The position numbers were made by a program, and so were the translations under genes. A DNA stretch of 64,000 nucleotides from Cellvibrio sp. 79. Its GTDB lineage: Bacteria; Pseudomonadota; Gammaproteobacteria; Pseudomonadales; Cellvibrionaceae. Each line of letters starts with the position of its first letter. Position 1 is the first letter of the stretch. The notes beneath the pieces are model-generated. The model had not been told where the DNA came from, did not search any database, and saw nothing but the letters and a program-made list of their open reading frames with translations. Shown here piece after piece: positions 25,260-31,946 of the stretch. Where the stretch lies: positions 186,001 through 250,000 of the forward strand of contig MVDH01000003.1 in the NCBI GenBank assembly GCA_003056245.1, written 5' to 3'.

Positions 25260-28226
25260 ATGACTTTTGACCTCGGCCAAGTTGCACTGATAGGAATCGG
25301 CTACCTGCTGCTGTTATTTGGTATCGCCTGGATTACCGAACGCGGCTGGATTCCAGAATCAGTTACCTCCCATCCCATCACTTATATTTTGTCACTCGGT
25401 ATTTTTGCGAGCGCCTGGGCGTTCTACGGCGTAATCGATCTGGCATTCCAATATGGTTACGGGGCGCTGGCTTATTACCTGGGAACAGGAGCGCTGTTCC
25501 TGTTTGCGCCAGTCGCGCTGGCACCGCTTGCCGAGTTGGCGCGCCGCCATCAGGTTCACTCCCTGGCAGATTTACTGGTATTTCGCTACCACAGCCACAG
25601 CGTAGGCGCGCTGACCACATTGTGTATGCTGTGCGGGATTTTGCCGCTGCTCGCCCTGCAAATTCAGGCAATTGCCGACACCATGCATATCCTGACAGTG
25701 AGCGGAAATCCCTCGCTACCACTGGAAACCGGCCTCACCTTTAAAGACATCATGGCGCTGTGCTATTGCGCTATCCTGGCGTTCTTTACCATTTCTTTTG
25801 GTGCCAACCGCGACCAACACCGCGGGCTTGTTACCGCAATGGCATTTGAGTCGCTGTTGAAAGTTTGTGCGCTATGCGCGGTTGGACTGGTGTCTGTTTA
25901 TGGCGTCTTTGATGGCCTTGATGGCCTTGACCAGTGGCTGCTGGACCACCCTGAAAATCTGGCCTTATTGCACACCCCGATTCACACTGACTCAGCCCAT
26001 ACCTTGTTGCTGGTATTCGTCGCTACGGCGGTAACCATGCCCCATATTTTCCATTTGGGGCTGGCGGAAAATCCGCTGATGCGCAACTCACACACTGTGA
26101 CCTGGGCGTTCCCTCTGTTCCTACTGCTCATGGCACTGCCGATTTTCCCGATCCTATGGGCAGGCACCGAACTGTCAGTACCTTTGCCACCACAATATTA
26201 TTCACTCGGCGTTCCGATCCTGTTTGACTCGCCCGGCCTAACCCTGCTGGCATTCCTTGGCGGCCTCTCTGCGGCGACTGGCGCCATGGTAATCATCTCA
26301 CTTGCATTGGCGACCATGGTAATGAACCATTGGCTGCTTCCCAGCCTTAAGCTGCGTACACGTACAGACTTATACAGCCAACTGATCTGGCTGCGCCGGA
26401 TCATTATCGCGGCCATTTTCGCCGGTGGTTATGTGTTTTATTGGGTTCTGGACAATCGCTTCAGTCTCGCCCATCTAGCCATGACAGCATTTATTGAAAC
26501 GCTGCAATTCCTGCCCGGTACATTTGCGATTGTGTTCTGGAGCAAAGGCAATAAACGCGGCCTGATTGCGGGTTTATCGGTCGGCACCAGCATTTGGGCG
26601 CTGGGGCTTTTGCTGCCAATCCTCACTGGAATCGAGCACCTTCATCTCCCACTGGGAAACATCAATATTCCCGTTGGCATTGAATATTGGAATCATGTCA
26701 CGTTGATTTCACTTGGCCTTAACACCTTTTTCTTCGTGGTGATCTCACTGCTAACACGTCAAACTGACGATGAACAATACAGTGCCGAGGTTTGTGCCGC
26801 CGATGAACTCAGCCATCCGGTACGCCAGGCGCTGGATGTTCACTCTGCCTCCGAATTCAAGCATCGCCTCGCCAAACCATTAGGCAAAGTCACCGCCAGC
26901 CGCGAAGTAGACATCGCCTTACAGGAACTCAACCTCACTATTGATGAGCGCCGCCCTTACGCATTGCGCCGTTTACGCGATCAGATTGAAGGTAATCTTT
27001 CCAGTTTGATGGGCATTCATGTCGCCAGCGAGATCATGGATAAATACATCCCCCATGTCACCGCCGAAACCCAAAGCACGGTTGATATCAACCTGATCGA
27101 AAACCGCCTCTCCCAATACCGTGACCACCTCACCGGAATGGCGGCGGAATTGAATACGCTGCGCCTTTACCATCGTAAAACCCTTGAAGAACTGCCTATG
27201 GCGGTATGCTCATTGGGGCGGGACATGGAAGTGCTGATGTGGAACCGGGCGATGGCCAGCCTGACCCAGATTCCCACCGAAGACGTGACCGGGTCCTATC
27301 TGGAAGATATCCCGGAACCCTGGTGCAGTCTGTTAATCGACTTCAGCCAAAGCAAGGAGCCGCACTTCTATCGCCGCGAGATCGAACTCAACAATCGCCC
27401 CCACTGGATCAGCCTGCACAAAGCCAACATTGAAGGTCCTATCACCGCCGGCGTTTATGATCAGGTAATGCTGTTGGAAGATGTAACTGAAACCCAATTG
27501 CTGGAGCAGGAACTGGTGCACTCCGAACGACTGGCCTCTGTCGGGCGGTTGGCGGCAGGCGTTGCCCATGAAATCGGCAACCCTATCACCGGCATCGCTT
27601 GTTTGGCACAAAACCTTAAATACGACTCCAGCGACCCGAAAGAAGTGCTCGAAACTGCTGAGCAAATCCTCAGCCAGACAGATCGCGTCGGCCGGATCGT
27701 GCAGTCACTGGTAAGCTTCTCCCACGCTGGCCATGCCAGCAAAACAGAATTTGAAGCTGTTTCCATTCGTGACTGCGCCAACGAAGCAATCCACCTTCTA
27801 TCCCTGCAAAAAGAGAAAAATCAAGTCCTTTTCTGCAACGACATCCCCAAAACCGCCATCATCGCTGGCGATGCACAACGTATGATTCAGGTTTTTATAA
27901 ATCTTTTATCTAACGCACGGGATGCCAGCCCGGAGCAAGGGCGTGTTATGCTTGAAAGTAACGAAGATGAGGATTCGGTAACAGTTTCTGTTACCGATGA
28001 GGGCCACGGTATCCCTCCAGAGCTAATCGAGCGAATTCTCGAACCTTTCTTCACCACCAAAGAACCGGGTGAAGGTACAGGTTTGGGCTTGGCCATGGTT
28101 TACAGCATTATCGAAGACCACAGCGGCCATATGGACATTATCAGTCCCGCCGACCCGGTTCATAATCGCGGCGCACAATTTGTAATAACACTGCCGCGTC
28201 ATCTTGATGCATTCATGGACGCCTGA
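25260..28226 (+). CDS. cbrA: Sensor histidine kinase CbrA with N-terminal solute-symporter domain
   Basis: A 988-residue hybrid of transporter and kinase. Residues 1 to about 500 form a multi-helix sodium/solute symporter-like domain. A linker (STAC-like) follows, then a PAS domain near 625-745 ('[25 protein letters not shown]'). The HisKA domain has the phospho-acceptor His770 ('[14 protein letters not shown]'). The HATPase has 'NLLSNARDA' and '[21 protein letters not shown]'. In Pseudomonas CbrA with CbrB controls carbon/nitrogen balance and histidine and proline use, and activates crcZ. The same neighbours, including the RNA behind cbrB, are present here. Confidence 0.94.
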
Positions 28227-28298: not shown

Positions 28299-29711
28299 AT
28301 GAGCAAGATTCTGATTGTTGAAGACGAGACTATTATCCGCAATGCCCTGCGCAAACTGCTAGAGCGCAACCAGTACGAGGTCAGCGAGGCCCCATCGGTA
28401 AAAGAGGCAACCTCCAAATTCCAACTCAAGGACTTTGATCTGATTGTCAGCGACCTGCGCCTGCCGGGTGCTCCGGGTACTGATTTGATCAAGCTGGCGG
28501 GCGATACTCCCGTCTTAATCATGACCAGTTACGCCAGCTTGCGCTCAGCGGTAGATTCCATGCGCATGGGCGCAGTCGACTATATCGCAAAACCATTCGA
28601 TCACGATGAAATGGTTAACGCCGTTAAACGCGTTATCGGTAAGGCCAAGGCAGCCAACAAAGTTGCCGCTGCCTCAAACCAGGCAGCCAGTAGCGCTATT
28701 GCCGGGATGATCGGCGCCAGCGATGTAATGCAGGATCTCTATAACCGCATCCATAAAGTCGCACCAACCAACGCCACCGTATTAATCCATGGCGAAACAG
28801 GAACTGGTAAAGAGCTTGTTGCCCGTGCGCTACATGAAGAAAGCAACCGCAACAACCATTTAATGATTTCCGTTAACTGCGCAGCCATTCCCGACACGCT
28901 GATCGAGTCAGAACTCTTCGGTTACGAAAAAGGCGCATTTACCGGCGCCGCCAACAACCGCGAAGGCCTGGTTGCCGCTGCTGATGGCGGAACCTTATTC
29001 CTCGATGAAATCGGTGAACTCCCGCTGGAAGCGCAAGCGCGTTTGCTACGCGTATTGCAGGAAGGTGAAGTTCGGCCATTGGGATCGGTAGAGTCGCGCA
29101 AAGTCGATGTGCGCCTGGTAGCGGCGACTCACCGCGACCTGCGCAAACTCTCCAAAGAAGGCAAGTTCCGCGAAGACCTCTATTTCCGTATCAATGTGGT
29201 TCAGTTAGAGCTGCCGCCATTACGTGAGCGTGGGCGCGATATCATCAATATTGCCGAATCCTTACTGCAACGGTATTGCGGTCAATTCGGCAAGCCACAG
29301 CTCAAACTCTCATCATCGGCCATGGATGCCATTATGAGTTATAACTGGCCCGGAAATGTTCGCGAACTGGAAAACGCCATGCAACGTGCGGTTATTCTTT
29401 GTGAAGACAGCACTGAAATTGGCGACCACCTGTTATCTATTGATATGGATGCGCGCGATCTGGATGACAACACCGGCACATCCCTAATTGAAGCTCCACG
29501 TCTTGCTGGCCGGAGTAGTCGCCAGGACACAAGCGAAGATTTGTCCTTAGAGGATTACTTCCAACGCTTCGTCCTTGAGCATCAGGACACCATGAGCGAA
29601 ACCGAACTTGCCCGTAAACTCGGGGTGAGCCGAAAATGCCTCTGGGAGCGCCGTCAACGCCTTGGCATTCCACGCACCAAGGCTTCCGCAACTGCTACAA
29701 ACGCCAAATAA
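28299..29711 (+). CDS. cbrB: Sigma-54-dependent response regulator CbrB
   Basis: NtrC-family activator of 470 residues. The receiver domain has the phospho-acceptor Asp52 ('[11 protein letters not shown]') and 'MTSYAS'. The AAA+ domain has Walker A '[15 protein letters not shown]', the sigma-54-contacting loop 'GAFTGA' and '[12 protein letters not shown]'. A C-terminal Fis-type helix-turn-helix ('[20 protein letters not shown]') completes it. It lies 72 bases after cbrA. A terminator, then a sigma-54 promoter with phased repeats, lie immediately downstream and are likely its main target. Confidence 0.95.
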
Positions 29712-29733
29712 CATTTTTAATTTTTTCGATTTA

Positions 29734-29770
29734 AAAAATCCCCGTTATGCCCAAAGCAGCGGGGATTTTT
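29734..29770 (+). terminator. Terminator after cbrB
   Basis: AAAAATCCCCG (29734-29744) pairs with CGGGGATTTTT (29760-29770), ending in a T run. It separates cbrB from the downstream RNA gene. Confidence 0.85.
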
Positions 29771-29827
29771 GTTTGCAGTGACATTTTTATTAATCAATGC
29801 GCCAAAAAAGTTACTTCGACGCCAAAC

Positions 29828-29914
29828 TGTTACCCCCAAACACGAGAGTGTTACCGTAAAAAAACTGTTACTTTCACTACCCACCAGTAACAAATTTGCT
29901 ACCGATCTGTAACC
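29828..29914 (+). promoter_or_regulatory. Phased GTTAC repeats, putative CbrB enhancer
   Basis: TGTTAC occurs at 29828, 29849 and 29866, and its inverse GTAAC(A/C) at 29887 and 29909. Successive spacings are 21, 17, 21 and 22 bases, close to two helical turns for three of the four. A further GTTAC is at 29810. The cluster lies about 75-160 bases upstream of a sigma-54 promoter, the normal place for an activator of the NtrC type. That CbrB binds here is inferred. Confidence 0.6.
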
Positions 29915-29988
29915 GTTCGAAATAACAAAAAGAAATAAGAACCCATCAAAAAATACTAAGCAATTGTTTTTATTGAACATTTTAAAAC

Positions 29989-30004
29989 TGGCACAAGACC
30001 TGCT
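29989..30004 (+). promoter_or_regulatory. Sigma-54 promoter of the CrcZ-like RNA
   Basis: TGGCACAAGACCTGCT fits the -24/-12 consensus (TGGCAC-N5-TTGCW) at every specified base except one (C for T). The GG and GC pairs have the required spacing. Transcription is predicted to start near 30015. Confidence 0.8.
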
Positions 30005-30014
30005 CTATGTCGGC

Positions 30015-30409
30015 CATAACAAAAACAAACAATAAGAATTAATTAACAAAATCTAATAACAACAACAAATAATAAAAAACGTAAAAGCTTAAAAATAACA
30101 ACAATAGACAATAAGAAACTGAAACAAACGAATAACAACAAGAAACAATAAAAAACTGAAAGATATAGAACATAACAACAAGAAATAATAACAACAGAAT
30201 GTATATAACAATAACGAAAACAATAACTTAGATTGACCACGCTAGAAGACAAGAGCAATAAGACAGTAAAATAAAGCGGACTACTGACTAGGCACAGGAT
30301 GGGATAGCACGCGAGATTGGATGTTTGCCATGGAGGCAACCCATTGAGATGCCAGAATGCAGCACCTTGGTGCTACCCTCCAGCGGGAAAGCGAAAGCTT
30401 TCCCGTTTT
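30015..30409 (+). ncRNA. crcZ: CrcZ-like catabolite-repression RNA (Hfq/Crc decoy)
   Basis: An RNA of about 395 nt is predicted between the sigma-54 promoter and a terminator. The first 200 nt are strikingly A-rich and carry AACAACAA at 30058 (extended to a 12-mer AACAACAACAAA), 30097, 30134 and 30174, plus near matches at 30190 and 30207 and several other AANAANAA runs. AANAANAA motifs are the known Hfq/Crc target, and CrcZ in Pseudomonas (about 400 nt, five such motifs) lies between cbrB and pcnB, activated by CbrB through sigma-54. Position, promoter, motifs, length and terminator all agree. The 3' third is more ordinary and ends in small hairpins (AGCACC/GGTGCT at 30361-30374). No plausible protein gene exists here; a 98-codon frame on the other strand is a by-product of the A-rich sequence. 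Confidence 0.85.
30384..30409 (+). terminator. Terminator of the CrcZ-like RNA
   Basis: CGGGAAAGC (30384-30392), a GAAA tetraloop and GCTTTCCCG (30397-30405) form a perfect 9-bp stem followed by TTTT. Confidence 0.85.
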
Positions 30410-30557
30410 GCTTTCTGAGGAACTATGACGCTCAATGTTTAAGATATCAACTTACGCGACAAGTTCCTTGAACAAGCGCGATGTCGTAAAAAACCCTGAT
30501 CATCTGCTAAACTCGCCGCTTTCTTGCAACTGACTGCCTAAACACCAGCGAGACACC

Positions 30558-31946
30558 ATGCTCAAACGCTTGCTCAACCTATTCACCTCCAAGGATTCCG
30601 GAAAAGCCTCCGGCCACCGCACTAGCGATGGAGCCATATCCATCCCCCGCGATCAGCACAATATTTCCCGTAAAAATATCAGCCAGGCGGCGATAAAAAT
30701 CATTAAGCAACTGGAAGATGCCGGCTATTCTGCTTATCTGGTTGGCGGTGGTGTACGCGATTTATTACTCGGCAATCATCCCAAGGATTTTGACGTCGCC
30801 ACTAACGCGAAACCTGAAGAGGTTAAACGCCTGTTCCGCAGTGCGCGAATTGTTGGTCGCCGTTTCCAGATAGTCCATGTGCGCATGGGCCGCGAAGTAA
30901 TTGAAGTTACCACCTTCCGCGGCCACCATGAAGACAGTTCCCAGCATGCATCCCGCAGTGAAGACGGCATGCTGCTGCGCGACAATGTCTATGGCACCCT
31001 GGAAACCGATGCCATGCGCCGCGACTTTACTGTCAATGCCCTCTATTACACACTGAAAGACTTTTCGGTGATCGACTACTGCAAAGGTGTAGAAGATTTG
31101 AAAAATCGCACCCTGCGGATGATTGGAGATCCGGAAACCCGCTATAAGGAAGACCCGGTACGCATACTCCGTGCATTACGTTTTGCCGCCAAATTGGGAT
31201 TTACCATCGACCCCAAGACGGCCAAACCCATTAGCGAACTAGGCAATTTGCTACTGAATGTATCTGACGCGCGCTTGTTTGAAGAAGTACTCAAGCTATT
31301 CCTCGGCGGCTCGGCCACCGCCACCTTCAATTTGCTGCGCGATCACAATTTACTGCTACACCTGTTTCCTGGAACCGATGCTGCGCTTAAAGCAAACGAT
31401 GAACTGGGCGCAAACCTGATCGAGCAATGCATGATCAATACAGATAAGCGTATCCGTGCAGATAAAACCGTCACCCCTGCGTTTATCTACGCAGCCCTGC
31501 TTTGGCCTGCCTTGCAACAGCAATTCAAATTGCTTTCCAGCCAGATGACGCCTGCCCAAGCCTGGGTACAGGCAGGCACCAATGTTATCAACCAGCAACT
31601 GACCCGCACAGCAATTCCCAAACGCTTCCTGATTCCCATGCGCGAGATCTGGGATTTACAGCAACGCTTGCCCAATCGCCTTGGGTTGCGCGCCCTGCGA
31701 ACGCTTGATCACCCCCGATTCCGGGCAGCCTACGATTTCCTATTGATGCGTGAAGCCGCAGGAGAAGCACTCGATGGGCTGGGCGTTTGGTGGACCAATT
31801 ACCAGACAGCCAACGATGACGACCGTGAGCGCATGGTTAAAGACCTTGCGAGACAAGGTGGCCCTAAAGCGGGAGCAAATAAACCTCGCCGCCGTCGCGG
31901 GCCGCGTAAGCCAAAAACTGATACCACTAACAGCGGGAACGAATAA
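30558..31946 (+). CDS. pcnB: Poly(A) polymerase I
   Basis: Adds 3' A tails that promote RNA decay. The 462 residues belong to the class II nucleotidyltransferase family that also contains the CCA enzyme. They show the 'LVGGGVRDLLLG' motif, the metal-binding 'DFDVAT', 'VTTFRG', 'RRDFTVNALYY' and 'EDPVRILRALRFAAKLGF'. A strongly basic C-terminal tail rich in Arg/Lys, typical of PcnB rather than CCA enzymes, is present. folK starts four bases after the stop. An N-terminal extension of about 45 residues with Ser/Lys precedes the catalytic core. Confidence 0.95.
   Translation: MLKRLLNLFTSKDSGKASGHRTSDGAISIPRDQHNISRKNISQAAIKIIKQLEDAGYSAYLVGGGVRDLLLGNHPKDFDVATNAKPEEVKRLFRSARIVGRRFQIVHVRMGREVIEVTTFRGHHEDSSQHASRSEDGMLLRDNVYGTLETDAMRRDFTVNALYYTLKDFSVIDYCKGVEDLKNRTLRMIGDPETRYKEDPVRILRALRFAAKLGFTIDPKTAKPISELGNLLLNVSDARLFEEVLKLFLGGSATATFNLLRDHNLLLHLFPGTDAALKANDELGANLIEQCMINTDKRIRADKTVTPAFIYAALLWPALQQQFKLLSSQMTPAQAWVQAGTNVINQQLTRTAIPKRFLIPMREIWDLQQRLPNRLGLRALRTLDHPRFRAAYDFLLMREAAGEALDGLGVWWTNYQTANDDDRERMVKDLARQGGPKAGANKPRRRRGPRKPKTDTTNSGNE

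Follow-up and report, generated by a model that had tools for sequence, protein, structure and literature searches.

In the window, i.e., the whole 64,000-nt stretch of Cellvibrio DNA analysed here, the interval between a cbrB-type gene (28299-29711) and pcnB (30558-31946) very probably encodes a CrcZ-type decoy RNA that would be induced by CbrB from a sigma-54 promoter and would titrate Hfq and Crc. The best reading of the sequence is a positional ortholog of CrcZ that would carry a rearranged body. The kind of RNA, its place, its control, and its presumed action are known; the different body and the wider range would be new. A sequence-only reading had proposed such a decoy at this locus, and the sequence-level expectations for a decoy of this kind hold for the place, the promoter type, the CbrB subsites, the motif excess, the size, the terminator, and the presence of Hfq and Crc in the genome, but not for a match in Rfam. 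The sequence anatomy, its conservation in relatives, and the presence of the partner genes are direct observations. The interval comprises CbrB subsites, an IHF-like site, the sigma-54 promoter, an A-rich part, a structured part, and a terminator, which are listed here with the flanking genes:

25260-28226, + strand: cbrA-type gene, an ORF of 988 aa with a C-terminal histidine kinase by profiles
28299-29711, + strand: cbrB-type gene for a sigma-54-dependent response regulator, an ORF with NtrC-class profiles, located after cbrA in relatives
29828-29871 (29828, 29849, 29866), + strand: predicted CbrB F-type subsites TGTTAC, consensus from PMC6296734
29887-29892, + strand: CbrB R1-type subsite GTAACA, predicted by sequence
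29909-29913, + strand: predicted CbrB R2-type subsite GTAAC, at offset -80 and invariant in 19 aligned loci
29957-29969, - strand: IHF-like site TAAGCAATTGTTT with one mismatch, best site at offset -32
29989-30004, + strand: sigma-54 promoter TGGCACAAGACCTGCT, a pattern match conserved in relatives
30015-30409, + strand: predicted CrcZ-type RNA of ~395 nt, start inferred from promoter spacing
30015-30234, + strand: 5' array of putative Hfq/Crc sites, by repeats, motif excess, and folding energy
30235-30409, + strand: 3' structured domain, by folding, conserved in the genus
30325-30339, + strand: hairpin TTGCC-ATGGA-GGCAA with an ANGGA motif that is invariant in the alignment, a possible CsrA/RsmA site
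30382-30407, + strand: intrinsic terminator stem-loop with an 11-bp stem and a T-rich tail
30558-31946, + strand: pcnB, poly(A) polymerase, the downstream neighbour (TIGR01942, 556 bits against a cut-off of 306)

The cbrA and cbrB genes are named by architecture, order, and homology because none of the best 25 matches listed for each reaches its NCBIfam cut-off; the N-terminal part of the cbrA-type product is presumably a symporter, as in CbrA. Directly 3' of cbrB, a G+C-rich inverted repeat followed by a T-rich tail (29738-29766) probably terminates cbrB and would keep its transcription apart from that of crcZ.

The first 220 nt of the RNA are rich in adenine (138/220) and hold a dense array of motifs. 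Specifically, AAYAAYAA occurs 15 times in 30015-30234 against 1.72 expected from dinucleotide-preserving shuffles (0/2000 reach this count), AANAANAA 24 times against 9.4 (0/2000), and AACAACAA five times against 0.46 (2/2000). The four AACAACAA octamers read from the letters alone are all present at 30058, 30097, 30134, and 30174, but the count rises to five when overlaps are included, with an extra copy at 30061. Repeat analysis places the starts of the array modules near 30018, 30056, 30094, 30132, and 30172, at a pitch of 38-40 nt, the single pitch being a reading of repeat families D1 and D2. Outside the array peak, AAYAAYAA does not exceed two copies per 200-nt stretch on either strand of the whole window, and over 37 family loci the motif is found 487 times in sense and 3 times in antisense orientation. 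The segments 30015-30160 and 30090-30234, each folded alone, have a minimum energy of 0, and in the fold of the whole RNA the array takes part in a few weak pairs. A-R-N runs are ligands of the distal face of Hfq according to the excerpted text of PMC6422490, and the array has AAUAACAACAAGA in common with the amiE 18-mer that is bound by Hfq/Crc in the cryo-EM study of the same source. The expectation of a motif density at least as high as in the Pseudomonas model is borne out, with 24 copies of AANAANAA in the window locus against 11-16 in five Pseudomonadaceae-type loci (hereafter f20).

Upstream of the array, TGGCACAAGACCTGCT at 29989-30004 is the sole exact match to TGGCAC-N6-TGCW on either strand of the whole window. 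The window locus also contains four perfect CbrB hexamers against 0.23 expected (1/5000 shuffles), and their arrangement recurs in relatives: among the family promoters (n=37), F lies near -123 in 36/37, R1 near -102 in 36/37, and R2 near -80 in 37/37, and all three fall within a few bases of these offsets in 35/37 family and 4/5 f20 promoters, i.e., the offsets of the Cellvibrio locus are also kept in the Pseudomonadaceae-type loci. In the other families of the order, the complete F, R1, and R2 set is found in only 2/21 promoters, and R1 or R2 in 17/21. The crcZ gene of P. putida is driven by an F1, R1, and R2 arrangement, with 20-25 bp between the subsites, and by IHF, as described in the available part of PMC6296734. 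The best IHF-like site is at -32 in 27/37 family, 3/5 f20, and 8/21 other promoters, and the one in the window, with one mismatch, is not significant alone (48/200 shuffles are equally good).

A promoter model that covers the subsites, the IHF-like site, and the promoter, and that was derived from the window plus 18 loci of the family, matches 19 of the 26 in-order loci with an E of 1e-4 or less, among them all five f20 loci at 30-50 bits. It is weaker in L099, L107, and L110 and misses L095, L101, L114, and L115, the G305 and G155 loci being among those missed; outside the order, none of the 19 loci reaches E 1e-3, the best being a partial match at 0.004. As the model recognises the f20 crcZ promoters, the Cellvibrio locus is tied to Pseudomonas crcZ despite a body that is not matched by RF01675. 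Over the genome, the model finds one strong site, crcZ itself; among the 150 candidates scored out of 2219, no further crcZ copy that combines CbrB sites with motifs came to light. The next site (L204, about 1555 on the + strand, in G000:C9 near 431553) is sigma-54-like, scores 22 bits, and has neither CbrB subsites nor downstream AAYAAYAA.

The 3' part of the RNA is structured, with a fold of -51.3 kcal/mol for 30262-30409 (z -3.4), and is conserved within the genus. The terminator forms 10 consensus pairs in 19 aligned sequences, with two-sided changes at two pairs and one pair broken in one sequence, and it is the only element in the consensus fold of the 19 diverse 3' domains; a longer stem appears among 13 genus members, with almost no covariation outside the terminator. 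Nine ORFs of at least 20 aa overlap 29990-30420, measuring 23-48 aa on the + strand and up to 98 aa on the - strand. A coding function was rejected on the basis of the short + strand ORFs and of the indels of any length by which homologous units differ, in agreement with the initial impression that the RNA has no protein-coding signal. The proposed non-coding unit of ~395 nt with a terminator also stands in its size, with a predicted 5' end, and in the stem at 30382-30407. Among the ORFs of at least 150 aa in the window, 0/51 (overlapping ORFs counted; a small sample with no positive control) carry AANAANAA as a target motif just before the start (first 90 nt).

The body of the RNA is not recognised by the Rfam CrcZ model. 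Even with E values up to 10 allowed, RF01675 finds nothing in 29700-30560, and across the genome it has no match at E 0.001 (94 of 342 candidates scored), and the scan of the window with Rfam at gathering scores returns a C4 antisense RNA elsewhere as the only match. This element (RF01695, 52449-52534, - strand, 57.7 bits, above the cut-off) belongs to a prophage-type antisense RNA class. The five f20 loci served as the positive control for RF01675 and score 268-361 bits against a gathering score of 95 bits, and f20 is identified with the Pseudomonadaceae because all five loci score in this range; the built-in controls of the genome-wide search gave no signal. Hence the covariance-model check that had been suggested for this RNA fails for the RNA and for the genome, and works in the five Pseudomonadaceae-type loci. 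The cut-off is reached in 0/36 loci scanned outside f20: the 15 in-order loci outside f20 include five matches below it (L102, 67 bits; L109, 41; L111, 37; L101, 26; L107, 25), and the 20 family loci include one weak match (L070, 27.6 bits). Since RF01675 fails on the Cellvibrio RNA, the link to CrcZ is drawn from the position, the promoter, and the architecture of the motifs and not from the RNA body. In three Pseudomonadaceae-type loci (L090, L091, L092), a match to Rfam P36 (RF01679) lies in the interval that separates cbrB from the start of crcZ.

The distribution of the locus was examined through CbrA, which is matched in 100/100 genomes sampled from the family, own genome included (E 1e-150 or better), in 276/390 sampled from the order (E 1e-120), and in 39/369 sampled from the class, 35 of these 39 being outside the order. 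Stretches downstream of cbrB were fetched from 40 of the 99 remaining family genomes, from 28 genomes that represent 24 further families of the order, and from 19 of the 35 genomes outside it (20 had been requested). The choice leans to the better CbrA matches among those listed and, with f1, takes in 25 of the order's 47 family labels. AANAANAA motifs downstream of a sigma-54 site are present in 37/41 family loci (window counted), in 21/28 loci elsewhere in the order (5/5 f20 and 16/23 others), and in 0/19 outside, while pcnB lies downstream in 36/41 family and 5/5 f20 loci. In the 1.7-2.0 kb that follow cbrB outside the order, 0/19 loci contain pcnB or a motif-bearing stretch; a sigma-54-like site occurs there in two, of which one (G559) also has GTAAC at -78 and -56 but no motifs. 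Two of the family exceptions, G022 and G030, have one or no AAYAAYAA and no pcnB in reach, and the other two, G029 and G072, are rich in motifs and have CbrB subsites, with TGT as the -12 element of their TGGCAC promoter. The seven in-order misses consist of two stretches that end at a contig end (G100, G125), three that bear motifs without a strict promoter (G105, G370, G129), and two with neither (G115, G106). At G442, AANAANAA is clearly above chance (11 against 1.5), and AAYAAYAA not clearly so (1 against 0.14).

Named loci from the genome scan add organisms to this picture, although the set overlaps that of the sampled genomes and the two are therefore not independent. The interval is reached in 27 of 33 named loci, the six dropped being four that end in or before it and two in which cbrB was not found; 26 show the promoter, F and R subsites, and motifs, and belong to Cellvibrio, Marinimicrobium, Gilvimarinus, Pseudomaricurvus, Microbulbifer, Aestuariicella, Saccharophagus, and four metagenome bins without a genus name. 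Marinospirillum minutulum (Oceanospirillaceae) has the motifs and lacks the strict promoter. The suspicion that the organism lies outside Pseudomonas was correct, the closest named relative found being Cellvibrio mixtus J3-8 (Cellvibrionaceae), with a CbrA that is 98% identical.

Two variant forms of the locus were observed within the order. In L096 (G110), L097 (G165), L098 (G127), L106 (G172), and L117 (G237), the interval from cbrB to pcnB holds two tandem sigma-54 sites with AANAANAA motifs after each, which would represent apparent tandem CrcZ copies, unlike CrcY and CrcX of Pseudomonas, which are unlinked; the promoter model detects one of the two sites in L097 and both in the other four loci. 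In L105 (G121) and L112 (G174), the CrcZ-type units are very short, with a terminator-like stem that ends ~84-100 nt past the inferred start and 7-8 copies of AAYAAYAA.

Both presumed protein partners are encoded in the genome. Hfq is represented by one match, whose residues 1-72 are identical to those of P. aeruginosa Hfq at 66/72 positions. The Crc ortholog (L007) has 256 aa and is 48% identical to a Pseudomonas Crc (E 7e-75); it scores weakly in PF03372 and was found by direct comparison, and its gene adjoins a divergent gene that we take to be pyrE. At the six ExoIII catalytic positions, Crc reads S-D-N-Q-S-H against N-E-D-N-D-H in two nucleases of the same genome. The two strongest ExoIII-family matches of the genome (L001, L002) were rejected as Crc, as they keep the catalytic residues. 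Of the residues that touch RNA in P. aeruginosa Crc in the excerpted text of PMC6422490 (R140, R141, K155, W161, R162, R196), R140 and R141 are kept here, and K155, W161, R162, and R196 are not. Among aligned loci, Crc homologs have changed catalytic residues in the window genome, in 10/10 other family loci, in 5/5 f20 loci, and in 13/15 from other in-order families; outside the order, 10/10 keep N-E-D-N-D-H. In L185 (G155) and L196 (G123), the Crc homolog keeps N-E-D-N-D-H although the genome has a CrcZ-type locus, and these genomes are possible intermediates. Strong Crc matches left unaligned come from G103, G172, and G255 in the order and from G521, G671, and G790 outside, and the search gave a weak or no match in G115, G305, and G370 in the order and in six genomes outside. 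G305 has a motif-rich CrcZ-type locus (L101, 15 AAYAAYAA) in a 97% complete genome without a strong Crc ortholog (best E 6e-14).

The lost Crc contacts and the G305 genome would fit an RNA that titrates Hfq without Crc, as would the binding of A-R-N runs to the distal face of Hfq (excerpt of PMC6422490); however, the genome keeps a pyrE-linked Crc with a degenerate catalytic site, like that of Pseudomonas Crc, and with R140/R141 intact, and we regard a decoy for Hfq only as improbable. Somewhat better placed, albeit still unlikely, is an extension of the preferred reading that would not replace it, in which a dual decoy would engage Hfq/Crc at the 5' array and CsrA/RsmA at the ANGGA of the 3' hairpin, joining carbon control to Csr. 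A.GGA.GC is indeed invariant in 19/19 aligned 3' domains, the genome has two CsrA-family genes, and the CrcZ of P. aeruginosa carries just one ANGGA in its 3' part, to which RsmA binds in vitro, according to the available text of PMC6061880. Nevertheless, the single ANGGA of the window 3' domain is at about shuffle level (1 against 0.95 expected; GGA 5 against 3.14, p 0.13), the hairpin, which exposes ANGGA in its loop in 17/19 local folds, is not clearly better than with shuffled flanks (equally good in 6-47/200), and GGA is partly or wholly paired in the full-domain folds of L064, L065, and L067.

Two further explanations were considered. The structured 3' domain, conserved in the genus, could belong to an Hfq-dependent base-pairing sRNA whose A-rich part merely loads Hfq, but five modules exceed the need for loading one Hfq, and the place, the promoter type, and the motif excess recur with very different 3' parts, including the very short G121 and G174 units, which makes this explanation very unlikely. 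It is hardly credible that, instead of a free RNA, the unit forms an attenuated pcnB leader: pcnB does follow in the same orientation ~150 nt past the terminator, yet a conserved terminator closes the unit, and we know of no link of such motifs or of CbrB sites to pcnB control.

A CrcZ-type decoy for Hfq/Crc remains the preferred reading, and for it transcription control, Hfq/Crc binding, and derepression are inferred from the work on Pseudomonas. On exhaustion of the preferred carbon source, CbrA/CbrB would activate the sigma-54 promoter via the upstream TGTTAC/GTAACA subsites, probably with the assistance of IHF, and the resulting RNA of ~395 nt would end at its own terminator before pcnB. 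The decoy would then take Hfq/Crc off the ribosome-binding sites of catabolic mRNAs, lifting catabolite repression. The 3' structured domain would probably serve to stabilise the RNA and to terminate it, and it may bear a site for a second protein. Several observations count against full equivalence to CrcZ: the Crc contact residues that are lost, the absent Rfam match, the lack of a candidate target in the window, and G305.

The switch appears to be common to a larger bacterial group than Pseudomonas and its close kin. By their sampled distribution (samples, not a tree), CbrA/CbrB and the Crc-like enzyme look older, and both the RNA and the loss of catalysis appear to be traits of the order. 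A more specific scenario, to which we give slightly less than even chances given that 25 of the order's 47 family labels were covered, is that CrcZ would be no speciality of Pseudomonas but a device ancestral to the GTDB order of Pseudomonas and Cellvibrio and lost in places, that it arose between cbrB and pcnB at about the time when a pyrE-linked exonuclease III homolog turned into Crc through the loss of its catalytic residues, and that in Cellvibrio the RNA has become divided into an Hfq/Crc array and a separate 3' domain with possible CsrA binding. Its grounds are the greater age of CbrA/CbrB and, in the genomes sampled outside the order, the complete catalytic set of the nearest Crc homologs and a cbrB locus that is without the RNA.

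If the preferred reading is true, post-transcriptional catabolite repression by Hfq, Crc, and CrcZ would also operate in Cellvibrio, Saccharophagus, Gilvimarinus, Microbulbifer, and others. Several of these genera are polysaccharide degraders, and how they regulate the use of secondary carbon sources matters in practice. The system would also offer a comparison case for the conversion of a nuclease into a translational co-repressor. As a caution, RF01675 overlooks such RNAs, as seen in the loci outside f20. The Cbr system is stated to be exclusive to Pseudomonads or unique to the Pseudomonadaceae in the excerpted texts of PMC6296734 and PMC8871633, and in the open-licence PMC literature no paper was found on Cellvibrio with CbrA and CbrB, nor on Cellvibrio with Crc.

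Among known systems, the likeness to RNAs of the RsmY/RsmZ type is that of a regulated RNA that titrates a global RNA-binding protein. These RNAs are CsrA decoys, and RsmZ has multiple GGA hairpins, whereas the main motif of the Cellvibrio RNA is one for Hfq and its 3' domain has one ANGGA; membership in this class was rejected, as it requires several ANGGA hairpins. The amiE Hfq/Crc operator 18-mer, as given in the excerpt of PMC6422490, shares A-R-N repeats and AAUAACAACAAGA with the window array; it is a site in a target mRNA, whereas the Cellvibrio modules are several and lie in a non-coding unit. The closest counterpart is CrcZ of Pseudomonas (RF01675, with CrcY/CrcX), which in P. aeruginosa measures 407 nt, has six A-rich stretches, and titrates Hfq/Crc, according to the available text of PMC4063720. 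The two RNAs are alike in their place after cbrB and before pcnB, the sigma-54 promoter, the F/R1/R2 offsets, a length of ~400 nt, the many copies of AANAANAA, and the Hfq and Crc partners, and they differ in the body, which in Cellvibrio goes unrecognised by RF01675. The difference extends to the layout of the motifs: the 11-16 copies of AANAANAA in the Pseudomonadaceae-type loci are spread from about +3 to about +330, whereas all 24 copies of the Cellvibrio RNA lie in a modular arrangement within its first 220 nt.
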